Below, one piece after another: positions 1,040-11,076 of a stretch of 21,618 bases of DNA; within the stretch, counting starts at the first letter, position 1; the number at the start of each line of letters is the position of its first letter. This DNA comes from a virus. Location of the stretch: the IMG/VR virus record IMGVR_UViG_3300021092_000241, positions 1-21,618 of that record, one strand, 5' to 3'. The notes beneath the pieces are model-generated. The model worked only from the letters and a program-made list of their open reading frames with translations. It made no database searches and had not been told where the DNA came from. The translations under genes and the position numbers were made by a program.

Positions 1040-1441
1040 TTAATTATTTAGTCTAATATTTGCAAAAGGGACTTCTCTTAAGTCTGCAATTTCATCTGCA
1101 TAAACTTCATATAAAGATCCAGCAATTTCATTCCAAGTATATTGATGAACTTCTCCCCAGTGAAAATTAAGTGCCTTAAATCCCCAATTAAAAACTTGTG
1201 TGACTGCTACTAATGGATTTGAATCGTATCTAATATTAGGTGTTTTTGGATTGTAAACAAACGTATAATATTTACCAGATTGTGGAATCTTTCCACTTTC
1301 TTCCAATACCTCTAAAACTCTTAGCATTAAATCATCGGGATTTTCTGTTCCATCAATACCATCGATGACTGGACGAATGCGATTCGTATTATCATCAGTT
1401 GGATTTTTTTCTCTTCGTTCTTTAAGTGTCTTTCTAGGCAT
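1040..1441 (-). CDS. Conserved unknown structural-operon protein (133 aa)
   Basis: I do not know a function for this protein. It begins MPRKTLKERREKNPTDDNTN. The frame can be extended to a TTG at 1453, but the ATG at 1439-1441 is preferred: it overlaps the end of gene 4 by 8 nt, which is usual in this operon. The N-terminal 20 residues are strongly basic, suggesting DNA or protein binding. The rest looks like a small globular domain, with YYTFVYNPKTPNIRYDSNPL and a conserved-looking FHWGEVHQYTWNEIAGSLYE near the C-terminus. I have the impression that homologues occur between genes 4 and 48 in marine T4-like phages, usually annotated as hypothetical. Its placement between a head-completion gene and a tail-cap gene suggests a role in head or tail finishing; this is inference. 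Confidence 0.8.
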   Translation of the reverse strand: MPRKTLKERREKNPTDDNTNRIRPVIDGIDGTENPDDLMLRVLEVLEESGKIPQSGKYYTFVYNPKTPNIRYDSNPLVAVTQVFNWGFKALNFHWGEVHQYTWNEIAGSLYEVYADEIADLREVPFANIRLNN

Positions 1442-1877
1442 TAGAGATACCAAGTTCTGATTCTGTTAGGACTTTAAATTCATATCCACGATCAGCACAC
1501 CATTCTCTTGCCGCACTCCATTTTGCCTGATTTTTAGCATACTCATATGCTTCATAAAGATATTTTTTAGTCTGTCGTTGTGGTTTTGGTGGAGGAGTTG
1601 TTTGTCTTTTTGGTTTAATCTCAATCAAATATTTTTTGAGTAAACCATTACTTTCTTTGACTTTGATATAAAAGTCTGGAAAATATCGATGAACTTTATT
1701 ATCTACAGGAGAACGATAAGGTAATGCTATTTCTTCTGAACCCCATTCAATAATATTTTCATTTAAGTCACAATAGACCATAAATTTACGTTCCCAAAGA
1801 GATCTGTAAATGATATTTGTTGGATCTCCCTTGTATTTTTTTGGATAGGAAGGTTGATATTTTCCCTTATATGACAT
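1434..1877 (-). CDS. 4: Head completion protein gp4 (PD-(D/E)XK nuclease fold)
   Basis: The 147-aa protein matches T4 gp4 (gp50/gp4), which finishes packaged heads before tail joining. T4 gp4 is about 150 aa. Visible signature: GDPTNIIYRSLWERKFMVYC (17-36) with NENIIEWGSEE (39-49), then HRYFPDFY (63-70) and YLIEIKPK (83-90). The E29, D68 and E86-x-K88 pattern is that of the TnsA-like PD-(D/E)XK nuclease fold, and all of these residues are present, so catalytic competence is possible. A Lys/Gln/Pro-rich linker (89-104) leads to a helical C-terminus rich in Tyr, Ala and Trp. It is the first gene of the minus-strand operon, starting 35 nt from the divergent plus-strand gene. The start ATG has no obvious Shine-Dalgarno sequence. 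Confidence 0.87.
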   Translation of the reverse strand: MSYKGKYQPSYPKKYKGDPTNIIYRSLWERKFMVYCDLNENIIEWGSEEIALPYRSPVDNKVHRYFPDFYIKVKESNGLLKKYLIEIKPKRQTTPPPKPQRQTKKYLYEAYEYAKNQAKWSAAREWCADRGYEFKVLTESELGISNA

Positions 1878-2692: not shown

Positions 2693-3412
2693 ATGCCTTT
2701 ACCTAAAATTTCTACACCAACATATGAGTTGGAAATACCTTCGTTAAAAAAAAATATTAAATACAGACCATTTTTAGTCAAAGAAGAAAAGGTCTTAATT
2801 ATTGCGATGGAAAGTGAGGATCCAAAACAAATTGCAGAAGCGGTAAAAACCGTAATTTCAAATTGTATTCTTACTAAAGGAATTAAAGTCGAACAACTAT
2901 CAACTTTCGATATTGAATATTTGTTTCTGAATGTTCGGGGAAAGTCTGTTGGTGAGTCTGTTGATGTTTTAATTACCTGCCCAGACGACGGAACCACACA
3001 AGTTCCGGTTTCAATTAATCTAGATGAAATTAAAGTAAATGTTGGTGAGGAACACTCAAAGGATATTAAACTTGATGATACTTTGACTCTTCGAATGAAA
3101 TATCCATCGATGCAAGAGTTCATTAAGACTAATTTTAATAATACTCAATCTATTAGTATTGATGACACCTTTGAGATGATTTCTTCTTGTATCGATCAGA
3201 TTTTTAGTGAAGAAGAATCCTGGGTTGCTGCCGATTCGACTAAAAAAGAACTTGATGAATTTCTAGAACAACTGACCACAAATCAGTTTAAAGCAATTGA
3301 AAAGTTTTTTGAGACAATGCCTAAACTATCTCATATTATTAAGGTCAAAAATCCAAATACCGAAGTTGAAAGTGAGGTCGTATTGGAGGGTCTAACATCT
3401 TTTTTCGCCTAG
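2693..3412 (+). CDS. 26: Baseplate hub protein gp26
   Basis: The 239-aa protein matches the T4 gp26 family (T4 base plate protein family; T4 gp26 is 208 aa), a hub assembly component. Visible family features: MPLPKISTPTYELEIPS at the N-terminus, KYRPFLVKEEK (23-33), a helical segment with ISNCI (55-59), FDIEYLFLNVRGKSVGE (72-88) and CPDDG (96-100). The C-terminal third is helical and acidic, ending EGLTSFFA. Its last codons carry a perfect -1 slippery heptamer, described separately, that would extend this protein into the next ORF. The gene order 26 then a short 51-position ORF agrees with T4 (25-26-51-27). It likely provides the chaperone-like N-terminal part for the tape-measure-like proteins encoded next. 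Confidence 0.86.
   Translation: MPLPKISTPTYELEIPSLKKNIKYRPFLVKEEKVLIIAMESEDPKQIAEAVKTVISNCILTKGIKVEQLSTFDIEYLFLNVRGKSVGESVDVLITCPDDGTTQVPVSINLDEIKVNVGEEHSKDIKLDDTLTLRMKYPSMQEFIKTNFNNTQSISIDDTFEMISSCIDQIFSEEESWVAADSTKKELDEFLEQLTTNQFKAIEKFFETMPKLSHIIKVKNPNTEVESEVVLEGLTSFFA
3385..3406 (+). promoter_or_regulatory. Programmed -1 frameshift signal at the end of gene 26
   Basis: The heptamer T TTT TTC at 3400-3406 has the X XXY YYZ form in the gene 26 frame (TCT TTT TTC). An SD-like GGAGGG occupies 3385-3390, 9 nt before the heptamer, a spacing close to that of the stimulatory SD in E. coli dnaX. After a -1 slip the next codons are CGC CTA GGA and then the ATG at 3415, so the shifted frame is open and continues through the 59-codon ORF. 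The product would be 238 + 3 + 59 = 300 aa. The gene 26 stop follows one codon after the heptamer. No strong downstream hairpin is visible; only a short GCC/GGC pairing is present. Confidence 0.65.
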
Positions 3413-3414
3413 GA

Positions 3415-3594
3415 ATGGCTCATACTTCGTTGGAGTCATATTATAGAACTACTTTTCAGTTGATGCAGCATCATAAATACTCATTAACAGAATTAGAAAA
3501 TATGATGCCCTGGGAAAGAGAGGTTTATATTACTCTTCTTTCACAATATGTTGAAGAGCAAAATCTAAAGAACCAACATCAACAGAATGGCTAG
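3415..3594 (+). CDS. Small gp51-position ORF, likely the frameshift extension of gp26
   Basis: This 59-codon frame is too short for many gene callers. It starts 2 nt after the gene 26 stop and overlaps the next start by 8 nt. It has the look of the second half of a tail assembly chaperone: a Tyr/Gln-rich N-terminus, then LTELENMMPWEREVYITLLS (24-43) and a charged helical tail. Leu-rich helices joined by a PWERE(V/I)Y motif recur in the downstream part of such two-part chaperones. An AGGA abuts the ATG with no spacer, so independent initiation would be poor; translation by -1 frameshifting from gene 26 fits better. T4 carries gene 51, the hub assembly catalyst (249 aa), in this position. Sequence homology to T4 gp51 itself is not established here. 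Confidence 0.72.
   Translation: MAHTSLESYYRTTFQLMQHHKYSLTELENMMPWEREVYITLLSQYVEEQNLKNQHQQNG
3472..3479 (+). promoter_or_regulatory. Internal late promoter candidate
   Basis: CATAAATA fits NATAAATA exactly and shares the ATAAATACT core with the intergenic candidate at 11099. It lies inside the 59-codon ORF, 108 nt before the start at 3587. It could add transcripts for the long hub proteins without gene 26. Being inside coding sequence (codons for His, Lys and Tyr), it may be chance. Confidence 0.35.
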
Positions 3595-5290
3595 TCTATC
3601 ATCTCCATTTGCACCTCCTGCTCTTCCTGCAGCACAAGCACAACCACAGGCAGGTTTGGTTAATATTGAGAGAAATTTAGAATCTCAGAAAGAACAAAAT
3701 GTTAAGCAGACACAGGAAATTTCTGGACTTCGCACCACGATAGAATCTTTAAGAACAGAAGTCACAACATTGAATAATGGTATCGGGTCTGTTTCTAATT
3801 TAATACAGCAAGATACTGCCGTCGAAAAACAACAAGAACAACAAGAAGCAGAAAGAGAGAGAAGACTTGTTGAAACTAAAGTTCGAATGGGAAAAGAGTC
3901 TCAACTAGAAAGCAGTATTACAAGTGCTCTTGTGGGACCGGTTCAGGCTCTTGAACCAAAAATTAATAACATATTTGATAGAATTAAAACAGCTTTATTT
4001 ACATTATTTACCGGTTGGTTAACGAATCAGGGAATTGAAGCACTTAGAGCAAGTGCAGAAGGAAATAAAACTGAATTAGAAAAAATTAGAGATAGAGTTC
4101 TTAATGCTTTTGGAGATGTTATAAAAGTCTTCGCAGCGATTAGAACCGGATTTAGTTTGATAATTGGAACTATTACCACACTTGCTGGAAGAATTGCTGG
4201 TTTTGTAACCAAACTTGCTCTGGCACCCATAAAAGTTTTAACAAATACTCTTAGAGGTGCTCCTCTTCTACAAAATGTGTTTGGTGAAACAAAACCTAAA
4301 CCTAAACCAACAGGACCAGGACTCATTGGAGGATTATTCAGTAGTGTTGAAGCATTTATGAATTTTAGAAATGGGGAAAATGTAGATGCAATTATGAACG
4401 CTGCGTTGTTACTTCCGACACCTCCTATTGTTAAAGGACTTTTAATTGCGGGTGTAACAGTAGATAATATAGCAGAAGTATTTGGTGGTAATCTTTTTGG
4501 GTTTAAAAATCCAAATCACGAAAGAAAGGGAAAAGAAATTGCGGAAGAAGCAAAAAAACAAAAAAAATCTTCAACATCAACAACATCAACAACATCAACA
4601 TCAACAACATCGACAACATCGACAACATCAACATCAACCGCACAAACTCCGTTAATGGGAGATAAAAAAGATGAAAAATCTGAAACTGATCCAAAAAATA
4701 TGACTCCTGGTCCAGTACCCGGAAGTCCAAATATTCAACCTACTTCTGCTGGTGGTGCTGCTCCTGCTGGTGGTGCTACTCCTGCTGGTGGTGCTGCTCC
4801 TGCTGGTGGTGGAGATCCCGCAGGTGGTGCTGCTCCTCCTACTAGTGGTGGTGTTAGTAGTCCAATGACATCTATGGCACCACAGGCATCAGAACTTTCA
4901 TTAAATAATCCTCCGGGAGCACTAGTTCCCGGACAAAGACCTGATAAAGCTCTGACTAGCGAACAATTTAAGGCAGCAACACAAGCAAGAGCACAGGGTA
5001 AAGCAGATGGATTGTCTGGAAAAGAATTGGAGATATATGTTGCAAATGCTGCTATGAATGCTGGAACACCGAGCACCGCAAATATAAGTTCTCCAGCGCA
5101 GACTCCAAATGTTGGGGCACTTCCAGAACCGACTCCAAATGTTATTATGGCAGGAGAGCAGGGTGGTTCTCAACAATCACCAACTCCACAGGCACCACCA
5201 GTAGGAAGCGATACTCCTATAATTAATTCTTCCAATCCTGATAATTTTTATGTCCTTTATTCTCAATTAAATTATAATGTGGTGATATAA
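3587..5290 (+). CDS. Tape-measure/hub-like structural protein (567 aa), function inferred
   Basis: I cannot assign this protein by motif, but its build and place suggest a hub-associated or tape-measure-like protein (T4 gp29 is 590 aa). Order: a Pro/Ala/Gln start, a long heptad coiled coil (about 24-112), an amphipathic hydrophobic segment LFTLFTGWLTNQGIEAL (137-153), a charged helix, then very hydrophobic helices (about 175-222 and 265-300) as seen in tape measures. Residues 328-351 are a Ser/Thr repeat and 389-418 a GGAAPA repeat, followed by Ala/Pro-rich sequence and a short ordered C-terminus. The GWL-rich block resembles the one in the following gene. It comes directly after the predicted tail assembly chaperone, where tape-measure genes usually lie. 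It starts 8 nt inside the 59-codon ORF and ends 1 nt before the next start. Confidence 0.72.
   Translation: MASLSSPFAPPALPAAQAQPQAGLVNIERNLESQKEQNVKQTQEISGLRTTIESLRTEVTTLNNGIGSVSNLIQQDTAVEKQQEQQEAERERRLVETKVRMGKESQLESSITSALVGPVQALEPKINNIFDRIKTALFTLFTGWLTNQGIEALRASAEGNKTELEKIRDRVLNAFGDVIKVFAAIRTGFSLIIGTITTLAGRIAGFVTKLALAPIKVLTNTLRGAPLLQNVFGETKPKPKPTGPGLIGGLFSSVEAFMNFRNGENVDAIMNAALLLPTPPIVKGLLIAGVTVDNIAEVFGGNLFGFKNPNHERKGKEIAEEAKKQKKSSTSTTSTTSTSTTSTTSTTSTSTAQTPLMGDKKDEKSETDPKNMTPGPVPGSPNIQPTSAGGAAPAGGATPAGGAAPAGGGDPAGGAAPPTSGGVSSPMTSMAPQASELSLNNPPGALVPGQRPDKALTSEQFKAATQARAQGKADGLSGKELEIYVANAAMNAGTPSTANISSPAQTPNVGALPEPTPNVIMAGEQGGSQQSPTPQAPPVGSDTPIINSSNPDNFYVLYSQLNYNVVI
4568..4639 (+). repeat. 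Ser/Thr codon repeat (ACA/TCA) in the 567-aa protein
   Basis: Seventy-two bases consist almost only of the codons ACA, TCA and TCG, encoding a Ser-Thr run of 24 residues (328-351). The Thr-Thr-Ser and Thr-Ser units are irregular, so this is a compositional linker rather than an exact tandem array. It probably separates the hydrophobic N-terminal half from the C-terminal part. Confidence 0.8.
4751..4840 (+). repeat. 18-bp tandem repeat encoding GGAAPA (5 units)
   Basis: Five in-frame 18-nt units of the form GGTGGTGCTGCTCCTGCT run end to end. Units 1 and 3 are identical, unit 2 has one change (Ala to Thr), unit 4 is diverged (Gly-Gly-Gly-Asp-Pro-Ala) and unit 5 ends in Pro. The product is a flexible Gly/Ala/Pro linker. 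Confidence 0.85.
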
Positions 5291-5291
5291 T

Positions 5292-7253
5292 ATGGCAATC
5301 TCATCACCACTTACTCCAAAAACTTCGGAAAGAACTATAAAAAACCTTCAGGGTATCATACTCAATAAAACACGAGTTAGTAGAGAAACTTTTCGAAATA
5401 AAACAATCTTACAGGATCGTAGAATTGAAAATGACAGGAGAGCTCTTCAAGAAGACGCACTTGAGGCACCTGATATTGTGAGAAGACCACGTGGTGCCGC
5501 ACAATTAATTGCCGGTAGTACCAAGGGATTTTTTGAGAGATTACTCGGATTTCTTGGTTACTTAACTGCCGGATGGCTTCTTAGTAATTTACCCACCTGG
5601 ATTGCAATGGGTAAGGAGTTTATTGCCAGAACTGAAAAAATGGGCAATTTAATTGGAGGTTTTCTTTTAAATACCACAAAAATATTCAATAATATTACGA
5701 GTCTTTTGGGTGCGACTTTAACTAATATAGTGACATTCGATTTTCTTGATACTTCGGAAAGAGTTGGCACTGCTTTCGAGGAACTTCAATTAAGTGTGGA
5801 TAATTGGGGAACTGGATTTGAAGAAGCTCTTAACTTAATAACATCTCCATTAACCGAAGGTGTTGCTTCTGGTGAGAATGCTCCTCCACCAGGAACTCAA
5901 TATACCGATGAGGGTGCCTATGAAACACCACCATCTTCTGGTGGCACTCCGGCACCGCAAGTAATGTTAGAGGGTGGAATATCAGGCACCACCGCTTTAT
6001 TGCCAGCTAGTGCAAAGGGTGCTGATCAATATATTGGAGCCACGGATCGTTTTGGATATTCCAGTTGGAGAGGAAGGCATCATAATGGTATTGATATTGG
6101 AACAACCAAACAAAAAGGATATTACGTCGCATTTTTACTTGATGGAACGGCAACTCTTGGCAACCAACCAGAAGGTGCTGGGTTATTTGTTGAAATAAAA
6201 AGTGGTGGAACGACATATAAATTTTTTCACCTTGCTAGATTTTCTATTGCATCTGGTCCGTATAAAGCTGGAACTGCAATTGGTGAAATTGGAACTACTG
6301 GATCTAGTACTGATATACATTTACATTATGAAGTTCATCCACCAGGATCTAAGGGAGTAGATCCAACACCATATTTAAATCTTATTAAAATTGGAAAAAA
6401 ACTAGGCAAACCAACTCCTGCTCCGGCTTCGATTGCTTCTTCATCAACTAGTCAACCTCAACAAAACTTAATGGGAACTTCTTCTTCGGGAATAAAATTG
6501 GGAGGAGGATCAAATGCGGAAAAAGTATATAAGCATTTAATTGGATCTGGATTTACTTCTCAGGCATCTGCCGGTGTAATTGGAAACTTAATGCAGGAAA
6601 GTGGTGGGGGGACATTTAATATCAATCCACAAAGTCATCAAAAGGATGGACCAGGAAGAGGTATTTTACAATGGGGAACTGGAAAAGGTAGTGGAGAAAG
6701 ATGGGACACATTGTCTGCCTGGGCCAAAAAATCAGGTAAAGATCCATGGACTCTTGAAACACAAGTTGAATGGATGATGAAAGAAATGAAAGATAGAGGA
6801 ACTCTTAATCGTCTTAAAGGAATTAAAGATACACGTAAAGCAACTCTTTTATTTGAAAACGAAATGGCAGCTGCTGGAAAACCTATGATGGAAAATCGTT
6901 ATCGTTATGCTGATAAAGCTCTTGCAACATTTGGTGGAAAATCTGCGACGGATATTTCCACCCCATCATCCCCATCCATAGCATCAGCACAAACATCAAC
7001 CCCAACACCGGCACAAATCACACCAACCGGAACTCCTCAAAATCCACAAATGAGTCAGTCATCACAGGCTCTAACACCAGAGAGAACCGGACCAACGGTG
7101 ATCGTTGCTCAAAATCCTTCGTCTATGGGACAACGAATGATGTCTTATGGTGGTGGAGGTTCTTCTGGTGGAGGATCACCACAAATAAGTGAATTTGCTA
7201 TGTTAAATAATTTTATAAAAAATAAACTTCTACTCGATCTTGCTTACCTGTAA
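5292..7253 (+). CDS. Hub protein with M23 endopeptidase and tail lysozyme domains
   Basis: This 653-aa virion protein should cut peptidoglycan during DNA injection. The N-terminus (1-75) is basic and helical. Residues 76-150 are hydrophobic and resemble the GWL block of the preceding protein. A Pro/Gly linker (190-225) leads to an M23 (LytM-type) zinc endopeptidase: H264-x3-D268, H313 and H343-x-H345, with spacings of 49 and 81 residues from H264, close to LytM (50 and 83). After a Ser/Pro linker, residues 408-547 fit the phage tail lysozyme family, with GVIGNLMQESGGG (428-440, candidate catalytic E436), a GILQWG motif (457-462) and a Trp-rich helical C-terminal part. A Ser/Thr/Pro/Gln and Gly tail follows. 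It shares a TAATG overlap with the next gene. Two lytic domains in one hub protein compensate for the missing lysozyme in the gp5-like protein. Confidence 0.86.
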   Translation: MAISSPLTPKTSERTIKNLQGIILNKTRVSRETFRNKTILQDRRIENDRRALQEDALEAPDIVRRPRGAAQLIAGSTKGFFERLLGFLGYLTAGWLLSNLPTWIAMGKEFIARTEKMGNLIGGFLLNTTKIFNNITSLLGATLTNIVTFDFLDTSERVGTAFEELQLSVDNWGTGFEEALNLITSPLTEGVASGENAPPPGTQYTDEGAYETPPSSGGTPAPQVMLEGGISGTTALLPASAKGADQYIGATDRFGYSSWRGRHHNGIDIGTTKQKGYYVAFLLDGTATLGNQPEGAGLFVEIKSGGTTYKFFHLARFSIASGPYKAGTAIGEIGTTGSSTDIHLHYEVHPPGSKGVDPTPYLNLIKIGKKLGKPTPAPASIASSSTSQPQQNLMGTSSSGIKLGGGSNAEKVYKHLIGSGFTSQASAGVIGNLMQESGGGTFNINPQSHQKDGPGRGILQWGTGKGSGERWDTLSAWAKKSGKDPWTLETQVEWMMKEMKDRGTLNRLKGIKDTRKATLLFENEMAAAGKPMMENRYRYADKALATFGGKSATDISTPSSPSIASAQTSTPTPAQITPTGTPQNPQMSQSSQALTPERTGPTVIVAQNPSSMGQRMMSYGGGGSSGGGSPQISEFAMLNNFIKNKLLLDLAYL

Positions 7254-8587
7254 TGTCAATTAACAAGTCTCTATACGAAGAACTGGTTCTGGAATCAAAC
7301 GATCAAAAAAGGACGATTGACATTAAAAATGGTGTCATCGCATTCGAATATTTCGAGGACATTTTTTCTCCAACAATTACCGGTAGAATTAAAGTAGTCA
7401 ATACAGGAAATACAATCGAATCTTTTAAGGACCCAGACGGAGAAAAGCAATCGATTTATAATGGACTTCCTCTTCGTGGTGGTGAAAGACTTTCAATTAA
7501 ACTTGCCGGAAATGTTCCGGGAAGAGAATCACTAAATTTCTCAAAAGACCCCAAAGATTATTTTTATGTTTCGAGTATTACTGATGTAATTTCAGAGGCA
7601 CAAAATGAAAGTTTCACTTTGAATCTAGTTTCACGAGAGGCAATTACAAACGAAACTTCAAGAGTAGCAAAAAAATATTCAACATCATTAAAGATTAATG
7701 AGACGGTTCGCAAAATTTTAACCGATGTTCTAAAAACTGATAGAATCGGAACAATTGATGAGACTTCAAACAAGTATGGTTTTGTTGGTAATTTAAGAAA
7801 ACCATTCACCATATTAATTTGGTTAGCATCTAAAAGTGTTCCGGTGGTTTCCGGAGATGCGACTGCAGGATTTGTATTTTATCAAACTCGTGATGGATTT
7901 CAGTTTCGTGCGATTGATAATCTAATTGCTCAAAAACCAAAGGCAACATATGTTTATAATCCAACAACCGTATCTTATGATGATAATAATAAAAAGGTTG
8001 ATAATGAGTTTAAAATTTTAAATTATAGCACCGAAAAAAATCAAAATTTAATTGAGAAACTTCGTCTTGGAACCTATTCGAGTTCTAGAATTTTTTATGA
8101 CCCTCTTAAATTTACATTCACCGAATCAATATTTCAACTTAAAGATTATGACAATAAATCTGAAAATCTTGGTGGAACCGATTTAAAACTTCCTAAAATA
8201 TCAGAGGGTTCTGATCAATCTCTTGGAGATGTTCCTTCTAGAATTATCACTGCTGTTTTGGATATTGGAACAATCGAAGCAGAAGTATCAAAGGATGAAA
8301 ATGCTGACCCCTCTTTATATCAATCACAATCTTTAATGAGATATAATATTCTTTTTAGTCAGATTTTAAATGTAATGGTTCCTGGAAATATAGATTTAAG
8401 AGCGGGTGATGTGATTGAGTGTTTATTTCCCACTAATTCACTAACAGACAAAAAAGAACACGACCCAGAAACAAGTGGTCTATATATGATTAAGGAACTT
8501 TGCCATCATTTTAATACGGAAAATTCCTATACATCATTAAAATTAATAAGAGATACATTCGGAGTCAACAATAAAGAAAAGAAATGA
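7253..8587 (+). CDS. Baseplate hub ring protein, gp27-like
   Basis: The 444-aa protein fits the T4 gp27/gpD hub family, which forms the trimeric ring that carries the gp5 spike. An N-terminal tube-like beta-barrel starts with VIAFEYFEDIFSPTITGRIK (28-47), LRGGERLSIKLAG and YFYVSSITDVISEAQNESFT, the usual 'interface of tail tube fold' pattern. A middle helical and beta region follows, and the C-terminal barrel has MVPGNIDLRAGDVIECLFP and then GLYMIKELCHHF with a closing LKLIRDTFG. Position immediately before the gp5-like gene, with an ATGA 4-nt overlap, matches the hub order. The T4 protein is 391 aa. The alternative is a LysM-less gpD-type hub, which is the same functional class. Confidence 0.8.
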   Translation: MSINKSLYEELVLESNDQKRTIDIKNGVIAFEYFEDIFSPTITGRIKVVNTGNTIESFKDPDGEKQSIYNGLPLRGGERLSIKLAGNVPGRESLNFSKDPKDYFYVSSITDVISEAQNESFTLNLVSREAITNETSRVAKKYSTSLKINETVRKILTDVLKTDRIGTIDETSNKYGFVGNLRKPFTILIWLASKSVPVVSGDATAGFVFYQTRDGFQFRAIDNLIAQKPKATYVYNPTTVSYDDNNKKVDNEFKILNYSTEKNQNLIEKLRLGTYSSSRIFYDPLKFTFTESIFQLKDYDNKSENLGGTDLKLPKISEGSDQSLGDVPSRIITAVLDIGTIEAEVSKDENADPSLYQSQSLMRYNILFSQILNVMVPGNIDLRAGDVIECLFPTNSLTDKKEHDPETSGLYMIKELCHHFNTENSYTSLKLIRDTFGVNNKEKK

Positions 8588-11076
8588 TAGACGAATCACT
8601 ACTTAAAAGTAATTTTGTAGGAAGAGACGGATTCCGTTGGTGGATTGGTCAGGTTGCCCCCGAGGATGCACAGGGTGGGCAGATAAATGGTGAGGGATGG
8701 GGAAATAGAAGAAAAGTTAGGATTATGGGGTATCATCCTCACGATATCACCGAACTTCCCGATAAAGACCTTCCGTGGGCACAGTGTATGTTGCCCACAA
8801 CAACAGGAACTGGTGCCGGAAATAATGGAACTAATGTCAAAATATTGGGAGGAGATACCGTATTCGGTTTCTTTATGGACGGTGATAATGCTCAACTTCC
8901 GGTTATTATTGGTGCATTCGGTAAGACCGCAGAAGGTGCCGTAAGCAATCAATTTAGTTTTCCATTTAAACCGTTTACGGGATATACAAGTAAGATTAAG
9001 AATGATGGATCTAATTTAAAACGCGATCAAACGAACGAGGGAACCAAGGAGACTCAAAAATCACCATATCATCTTCCAACTAAAACCACAAATGAAAAAT
9101 CGAGTGGTGAAGAGATTTCATATTTCAGTGGTATTGGGGATAAGGTACAGTTTGCATCTACAAAAGCTAATACATTTGTTGATAAAATCTCGACAGAACT
9201 TGAAAATGCAGTCAAGTTTGTTGAGACATTAAAATCTTATAAAGATTTATCAAAAGAATATATTGATGAACAAATTGAAAAATTATGTAAAGAAATTTCT
9301 AAAAAAATACAAGGTATTTCTACCGGTATTGTTGGTGGAGTCTTGAATGATACTTATAAGAAAATGATTCCATCATTAAATGAAGGTGTCGAAAAGGTAT
9401 ATGATGATGTAAGTAGTAAAATTGAGGCAGCAACTAAAAGTATTTCACAGGGACATCTTGCCGGTGCCAAAGCTCAGGCAGAAACAATTCCACAATTAAA
9501 AAAACTTCAAGACGAAATCCCTAAATTAGGAAAATGTATTGTAAAGGATTTATTCAATATTATTGATGAAATGCTTTGTGCATTATTAAAAAATATTGCC
9601 AATCTAGTCTCCTGTGTGATAGATCAATTTCTTGGTGGACTATTAAATGCAATTATAGGTGCGATTGAGTTGGGACTCAATCTTGCGATGGGAGCACTTG
9701 GCATTGCTAAATTATTACAGGGATTTGATTTAGGATCAATTATCAGAGGGAGTTCCAAAGGTATTTCCGGAGTCTCATTTATTGCAGAGTGTGGTAAATG
9801 CCCATCTCCCTCAGATCCTGGTGTTGAAAGGTGGATGATTGGAAGTGGTGTGATTAGTTCGCCTGATACTAAGTTAAGCAAAATTTTAGAAGTTGCCAAT
9901 ACTGCCAAAGGAATTGTTGATGGAGTTACAGATGCCATAGATGCGGTAGAAGGCGCTATTACTGGCGTTACAGGAGCACTTGATATTTTTAACAGTTCTA
10001 TTGGTGATTCTGGAACTCAAAGTGCTCTCGGAGCTTGTTATGCAGGGCCGCCAAGGTCTTGCAATCCACCTGAACTTAAAGTATTTGGCGGTGGCGGGTT
10101 TGGAGCGGAGGTAATTCCTATTTTTGGTTCAATTGTTAATGGAAATGTTGGAAGTTTAATTGGTGCTGTAATTACAAATGCGGGGTCTGGTTATATTTCT
10201 GCTCCATTTGTGGAGGTGACCGATAATTGTAATCAAGGATATGGAGGAATTGTTCAAACAACAATTAATGCGGAAGGTCAAGTTGCTAGTGTCGTGGTGA
10301 TTTCCGATGGTGAAAATTACCCAGTTGGAACTCAAGACCCAGATGTATTCACAATTGTAAGTGTTCTGATTGAAAATCCAGGAGTAGAATATGAACCAGA
10401 TGATATTGTAATTGATAATCTTGGAAATGAATATAGTGTGATTATTAATAATGGTTCTATCGTTAAGGTTGACCCCGTAAATGTTAAGAATATTGAGAAG
10501 TTGCCTGTTCTTGAAGTTGTTGGTAAGAAAAATTCCATAGGAATATATGAAGTTACTCAAGGAAGAGGAGCAATATTAAGACCAATCTTTGGTATCAAAC
10601 CAGAGTTCCAGGGAGAAGTTCAACAAATTATTGATTGTGTTTATCCTAGACGTTCAGAAACACCTCTAACAACACCAACTTCTACATCAACTCCTATACC
10701 AATCACTGCATTAATTTCAACATCAACAACCACCACACCAACTTTAACAACCACCACACCAACTTTAACATCATCGGGTGGAGGTGGATCTTCTTCCCCA
10801 GCATCTTTCCCAGTACCAACACCTGTACCATCAACACCAACACCAATATCATCACCATCACCAACTCCTACACCAACTCCTACACCAACTCCTACACCAA
10901 CTCCTACACCAACTCCTACACCAACTCCTACACCAACTCCTACACCAACTCCTACACCAACTCCTACACCAACTCCTACACCAACTCCACCACCATCTCC
11001 ACCACCATCTCCACCGCCATCTCCACCGCCATCTCCACCGCCATCTCCACCATCGGGAGGAGGATATGGTTACTAA
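8584..11076 (+). CDS. 5: gp5-like spike base with OB fold, no lysozyme domain
   Basis: The 830-aa protein begins with the gp5/VgrG OB-fold domain (about 11-115): GFRWWIGQVAPE (16-27), RRKVRIMGYHPHD (42-54), LPWAQCMLPTTTGTGAG (63-79) and GDTVFGFFMDGDNAQLPVIIG (90-110). This domain sits at the hub-spike junction. A linker (120-185) leads to long helices (185-390) with a hydrophobic stretch IIGAIELGLNLAMGALGIAK (357-376). A Cys-containing segment (403-495) and a beta region with an NAGSGYISAPFVEV motif and a similar VISDGENYP follow (500-670). Residues 690-825 are Thr/Ser/Pro-rich, with exact Pro-Thr and Pro-Ser repeats, ending GGGYGY. I see no lysozyme-like Glu/Asp/Thr region and no gp5C beta-helix here. 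The needle is in the separate gene at 11151. Gene symbol by analogy only. Confidence 0.78.
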   Translation: MIDESLLKSNFVGRDGFRWWIGQVAPEDAQGGQINGEGWGNRRKVRIMGYHPHDITELPDKDLPWAQCMLPTTTGTGAGNNGTNVKILGGDTVFGFFMDGDNAQLPVIIGAFGKTAEGAVSNQFSFPFKPFTGYTSKIKNDGSNLKRDQTNEGTKETQKSPYHLPTKTTNEKSSGEEISYFSGIGDKVQFASTKANTFVDKISTELENAVKFVETLKSYKDLSKEYIDEQIEKLCKEISKKIQGISTGIVGGVLNDTYKKMIPSLNEGVEKVYDDVSSKIEAATKSISQGHLAGAKAQAETIPQLKKLQDEIPKLGKCIVKDLFNIIDEMLCALLKNIANLVSCVIDQFLGGLLNAIIGAIELGLNLAMGALGIAKLLQGFDLGSIIRGSSKGISGVSFIAECGKCPSPSDPGVERWMIGSGVISSPDTKLSKILEVANTAKGIVDGVTDAIDAVEGAITGVTGALDIFNSSIGDSGTQSALGACYAGPPRSCNPPELKVFGGGGFGAEVIPIFGSIVNGNVGSLIGAVITNAGSGYISAPFVEVTDNCNQGYGGIVQTTINAEGQVASVVVISDGENYPVGTQDPDVFTIVSVLIENPGVEYEPDDIVIDNLGNEYSVIINNGSIVKVDPVNVKNIEKLPVLEVVGKKNSIGIYEVTQGRGAILRPIFGIKPEFQGEVQQIIDCVYPRRSETPLTTPTSTSTPIPITALISTSTTTTPTLTTTTPTLTSSGGGGSSSPASFPVPTPVPSTPTPISSPSPTPTPTPTPTPTPTPTPTPTPTPTPTPTPTPTPTPTPTPTPTPPPSPPPSPPPSPPPSPPPSPPSGGGYGY
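10861..10980 (+). repeat. Perfect 12-bp tandem repeat, 10 units (Pro-Thr)
   Basis: CCAACTCCTACA is repeated ten times without a single change, encoding (PT)20 in frame. A synonymous difference would be expected between old copies, so exact identity points to recent slippage expansion or gene conversion. The repeats start after a degenerate Ser/Thr/Pro region and lead into the Pro-Ser array. Confidence 0.95.
10987..11046 (+). repeat. 12-bp tandem repeat encoding PPPS, 5 units
   Basis: Five units of CCA-CC(A/G)-CCA-TCT follow the Pro-Thr array. The second codon is CCA in the first two units and CCG in the last three, so two successive expansion steps can be read from the sequence. Together with the Pro-Thr array it forms a stiff Pro-rich C-terminal tail on the gp5-like protein. 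Confidence 0.9.

Follow-up and report, generated by a model that had tools for sequence, protein, structure and literature searches.

A conserved three-part recoding signal is predicted to join gp26 and gp51 into a frameshifted tail assembly chaperone in T4-like cyanophage-type phages

In the T4-like cyanophages, gene 26 is followed by a small open reading frame (ORF) that is annotated as gp51. This locus raises the question of whether the small ORF is a gene of its own or the second half of a longer gp26 made by programmed -1 frameshifting, as proposed in an initial annotation of the DNA. The window analyzed here, a 21.6 kb stretch of virus DNA, comes from a T4-like phage of the cyanophage type and holds its tail region. 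Its minus strand carries genes for the tail tube cap, a gene 2-like and a gene 4-like protein, which are followed on the plus strand by the tail tube gene (1913-2623, directly 5' of gene 26), gene 26, the small ORF, and more tail genes. The gp26 of the window shares 77% identity with its counterpart in Synechococcus phage S-SRM01 and 70% with the one in P-SSM2. The next gene (3587-5290, plus strand), the start of which overlaps the end of the small ORF, gave no confident family match in Pfam and PHROG profile searches, and its position suggests that it possibly belongs to the tape measure module. It is followed by a gene (5292-7253, plus strand) for a tail protein with peptidase M23 and tail lysozyme domains and a weak tape-measure-family match (phrog_9570, E 1.7e-15, over the lysozyme region). 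The downstream genes code for tail proteins, their tape measure identity being weak; in RHph_I1_18 the tape measure is annotated one gene further on. Elsewhere in the window, the gene 4-like head completion protein (1434-1877, minus strand) matches the TnsA-like endonuclease domain PF08722 (E 2.6e-25), and a tail protein at 8584-11076 has a long terminal Pro-Thr/Pro-Ser repeat encoded by simple-sequence DNA.

Gene 26 begins at ATG 2693 and its short form of 239 aa (2693-3412, plus strand) ends with CTA ACA TCT TTT TTC GCC TAG, where TTT TTC lies in the 0 frame. The heptamer T TTT TTC (3400-3406) has the register that tandem -1 slippage requires, and a single codon (GCC) separates it from the stop TAG (3410-3412). 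A Shine-Dalgarno (SD)-like GGAGGG (3385-3390) is present 9 nt 5' of the heptamer. The -1 frame is open from 3376 up to a TAG at 3592-3594 and runs through ATG 3415, which lies 2 nt past the gene 26 stop and is preceded by an AGGA (3411-3414). The initial annotation had placed the GGAGGG, the 9-nt spacer, the heptamer, the stop, and the open -1 frame exactly. The size of 300 aa that it gave for the fusion is likewise correct, with 238 codons before and 62 codons after the shift (join(2693..3406,3406..3594), spanning 2693-3594 of the plus strand) and a predicted junction peptide region of SFF-RLGMAHTS. Across the 6,024 codon steps of the window's coding sequences, T TTT TTC turns up in frame a single time. 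No other heptamer of the window lies 10 codons or fewer from a stop and has over 25 codons open in the -1 frame.

The products of both frames have known relatives. The gp26 of the window matches Pfam T4_baseplate PF12322 (E 9.5e-75) and the baseplate hub family phrog_150 (E 2e-81). The -1 product matches phrog_634, the baseplate hub assembly catalyst (E 5e-29), and also the C-terminus of phrog_150 (positions 229-278 of 282). Of the T4 proteins tested, a profile of the fused proteins matched only two, gp26 over the N part (E 2.7e-24) and gp51 over both the N and the C part (E 8.5e-15). Hence, in T4 the short and the long form appear to come from two distinct genes. The structure was modeled on a natural in-frame fusion (L029) with alignment rows for the N domain only, at a pLDDT of 86.5. 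VIA-align placed 2ob9, the tail assembly chaperone of HK97, first among the PDB matches of the model, with a modest Z of 8.0 and an rmsd of 3.9 over 84 residues; the match spans only about residues 1-96, the N domain. Next came 3fgx and 3klu, both related prophage-type proteins. Foldseek found no significant PDB match for the model, and the PDB sequence search gave nothing useful. The matches and the modeled fold support a tail assembly chaperone (TAC), of which gp26 would be the short form, TAC-N, with an HK97-like N domain, and the fusion the long form, TAC-NC. If so, the ‘gp51 baseplate hub assembly catalyst’ of cyanophages, encoded here by 3406-3594, is then the TAC-C domain and not a separate gene. 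The fusion used for modeling comes from a 236 kb contig (3001-3894) in which 2 nt are missing from the heptamer region (TCTTTTTGGTTAGG) and gp26 and gp51 share one frame of 297 aa. No second copy of gp26 was found in this contig, and a shift there would yield the short form instead. The sequence is present in only one contig of the collection, and an error is possible. In S-PRM1 (L083, 2528-2713), the gp51 domain is encoded by the -1 frame though it is unannotated in the GenBank record.

Junction loci were gathered with the gp26 of the window, S-PM2, PX29, and RHph_I1_18 along with those of named phages, which gave 145 distinct non-fused junctions. The short ORF is followed in all of them by a C-domain ORF in the shifted frame, which stays open past the heptamer position for typically 57-62 codons and in one case for only 22. 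The initial annotation had suggested an alignment of gene 26 3' ends. The junctions keep the -1 register, and 142 of the 145 have the X XXY YYZ heptamer (140 TTTTTTC and 2 TTTTTTT), in the 0 frame as in the window and always with a single codon between it and the stop, the conservation reaching proteins down to ~28% identity. The three junctions whose last eight codons hold no heptamer belong to RHph_I1_18, D524, and Marshall. RHph_I1_18 (L085, 3190-3235) has a T TTT TTA nine codons 5' of the gene 26 stop, not adjoining it, and the distant gp26 relatives D524 (L088) and Marshall (L090) keep a gp51-type -1 ORF with no X XXY YYZ heptamer near the stop, that of Marshall having no start codon either. 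Codon choice at the site is equally uniform. Phe-Phe is written TTT TTC in 121 of 123 distinct tails, where the codon usage of the gene itself (background TTT 0.715) would give ~0.20 each (binomial values on this basis ignore shared ancestry), and in every one of the 123 the base before it is a T that closes a Ser, Ala, Asn, or Asp codon. When the viral contigs of IMG/VR were scanned with the signal alone (GGAGGG-N9-TTTTTTCG-NN-TA), at least 119 sites were found and, among the matches listed, 118 of 119 were gp26 followed by the gp51 domain in the -1 frame. Conservation and the signal-only scan rule out a chance heptamer, and the same frames in 145 distinct sequences rule out a sequencing error or a pseudogene.

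The SD-like element, whose conservation was another check put forward earlier, is present as GGAGGG or GAGGG 9 nt 5' of the heptamer in 103 of the 145 distinct junctions. It coincides with a codon bias in the relatives. Of 99 distinct Leu-Glu-Gly sites, 83 use GAG for Glu (background in the gene body 0.286) and 79 have a G as the last base of the Leu codon (background 0.297); the two together give GGAGGG. The neighboring Glu codons are mostly GAA (134/175). Some relatives have no recognizable SD-like element or stem.

A third element, absent from the initial annotation, is found on the other side of the heptamer. The segment ATGGCTC (3415-3421, plus strand), which begins 8 nt past the heptamer and includes the candidate ATG of the -1 ORF, pairs with GAGTCAT (3433-3439). 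Both putative stimulators stand at the proper distance from the slip site. The arms vary together among the relatives (ATGGCTC/GAGTCAT, ATGGCGC/GCGTCAT, ATGATGC/GCATCAT, ATGACTC/GAGTCAT). In 72 sequences, 96% of the stem cells are paired as against 21-52% in slid controls, and 34 cells have changed on both sides as against 15.8 in shuffles, a number reached in 0 of 500 shuffles. On the gp26 tree, one pair shows at least 8 joint switches between U-A and G-C. Likewise, the downstream region folds better than its synonymous resamplings (mean z -2.3, 116 sequences). The stem-loop of the window is unexceptional alone (z 0.03 in 64 nt, with 9% of synonymous resamplings folding as well), and a stronger RNA structure sought in the window by itself was discarded, as single-sequence folding is unremarkable and the helix is revealed by comparison only. 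Relatives of S-PM2 have a different, longer hairpin of 14-16 bp (GTTCTATAAT/ATTATAGAAC; GTTTTATAAT/ATTATAAAAC), a group with neither the ATG nor the SD-like element has a CCCTCT/AGAGGG stem, and no clear stem is seen in a few lineages (L049, L057, L136, and L142).

The -1 ORF may also, or instead, be translated from a start of its own. Most relatives keep an ATG near its beginning, with which low-level initiation is compatible, and some free gp51 may arise by internal initiation beside the frameshifted TAC-NC in the phages that keep it. We consider this unlikely, as whole lineages are without a start codon and free gp51 is therefore not generally needed. It is more doubtful still that gp51 exists only as a small protein of its own, with translation beginning at ATG 3415 through coupling to the gene 26 stop 2 nt before it, as the databases have it for P-SSM2 and S-PM2. 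An ATG is missing near the -1 ORF start in 37 of the 145 junctions and any ATG, GTG, or TTG in 19. In nearly all of these, the heptamer is still present and the -1 frame open. In those 19, the C domain could hardly be expressed except as a fusion. The AGGA abuts ATG 3415 and hence leaves no SD spacing; the initial annotation had seen this and called the start poor, which is true of the window but makes up only a part of the argument. Moreover, the ATG lies inside the conserved stem, which also accounts for its conservation, and an independent start has no need of T TTT TTC. T4 gene 26 has an internal AUU start, and for this reason a non-canonical ATT/ATC start at 3382 or 3397, near the GGAGGG, was considered; it was rejected as those codons are not kept as starts in the listed junctions. 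Slippage of RNA polymerase on the T run would suit the six Ts of nearly all relatives but is a most improbable source of the long form, since the runs are not lengthened (140 TTTTTTC vs 2 TTTTTTT), the register always fits tandem -1 re-pairing, and the conserved SD-like element and RNA stem-loop both act on ribosomes.

The reading that we favor, with a probability of roughly 0.93 on the strength of the sequence comparisons and the fold model, is that a programmed -1 frameshift at T TTT TTC makes both TAC-N and the 300-aa TAC-NC from the gene 26 message. The earlier proposal of a fusion between gp26 and a gp51-like domain at a TAC locus finds support in the conservation, the start-less relatives, the SD-like element, the covarying stem-loop, T4 gp51, and the predicted fold. 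A fraction of the ribosomes at U UUU UUC (3400-3406) would slip back by one base, with both tRNA-Phe re-pairing on UUU UUU. The slip would be helped upstream by the pairing of GGAGGG with the anti-SD of 16S rRNA and downstream by the stem-loop (3415-3439), which may stall the ribosome. The slipped ribosomes would read CGC CUA GGA AUG and finish TAC-NC, and those that do not slip would stop one codon later and release TAC-N. If lambda gpG/gpGT is a guide, the tape measure protein may be coated by many copies of the short form and few of the long, with the C domain recruiting the tail tube protein, and a role in tail length is likewise suggested by lambda. Slippage in vivo, its rate, the ratio of the products, the action of the stimulators, and the role in assembly are what we infer from these data.

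The proposed arrangement has several parallels. Lambda gpG/gpGT and other TAC frameshifts are alike in making short and long forms from adjacent frames within the tail gene cluster by a -1 slip near the end of the short ORF. The lambda slip site is G GGA AAG; there is no sequence similarity to lambda, and the site here, T TTT TTC, is flanked by an SD-like element upstream and a stem-loop downstream. E. coli dnaX has an SD-like element ~10 nt upstream, an X XXY YYZ heptamer, and a downstream stem-loop, and thus shares the three-part layout. However, dnaX is an unrelated gene whose shift gives a shorter product, whereas here the shift would give a longer one. T4 genes 26 and 51, homologous to the short and long form respectively, are separate genes on opposite strands and need no frameshift. 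Frameshifting is said to be conserved in several T4-like groups, T4 reportedly using genes 26 and 51. A review of 2016 regarded low-level G-T frameshifting as widespread in long-tailed phages ‘except T4’ (PMC5009743). The initial annotation knew of no report for T4-like phages, but T4-like TAC genes, some with frameshift signals, have reportedly been described already (Vladimirov, Gautam and Davidson, 2022, Virology 566:9-15). That work, cited elsewhere for poly-T -1 signals in T4-like TAC-N genes (PMC12846349) and for some T4-likes with separate short and long genes (PMC10885494), concerns the same kind of gene, with gp26 as TAC-N and the 26-51 type as TAC-NC. No description of an SD-like element or stem-loop at the gp26/gp51 locus was found in the literature searched, which includes few subscription journals, and the conservation of the two may be a new detail.

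Short and long TACs made by a -1 slip are known from other tailed phages and have been proposed for some T4-likes; here, the three-part signal is unusually well conserved. It is likely that cyanophage-type T4-likes share this signal, with stimulators turning over between lineages and the heptamer fixed, and that what hundreds of cyanophage genomes list as a gp51 ‘baseplate hub assembly catalyst’ has no gene of its own, being the C domain of a TAC made by frameshifting. This would correct the annotation of gp26/gp51 in T4-like cyanophages, for which the records examined list two separate proteins or omit the second. The locus also offers more than 100 natural variants of one bacterial-type -1 signal, in which stimulators are gained and lost against a fixed heptamer and which may help in learning what such signals need. 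Finally, it speaks for the view that in T4 a separate gene for the long form takes the place of frameshifting.
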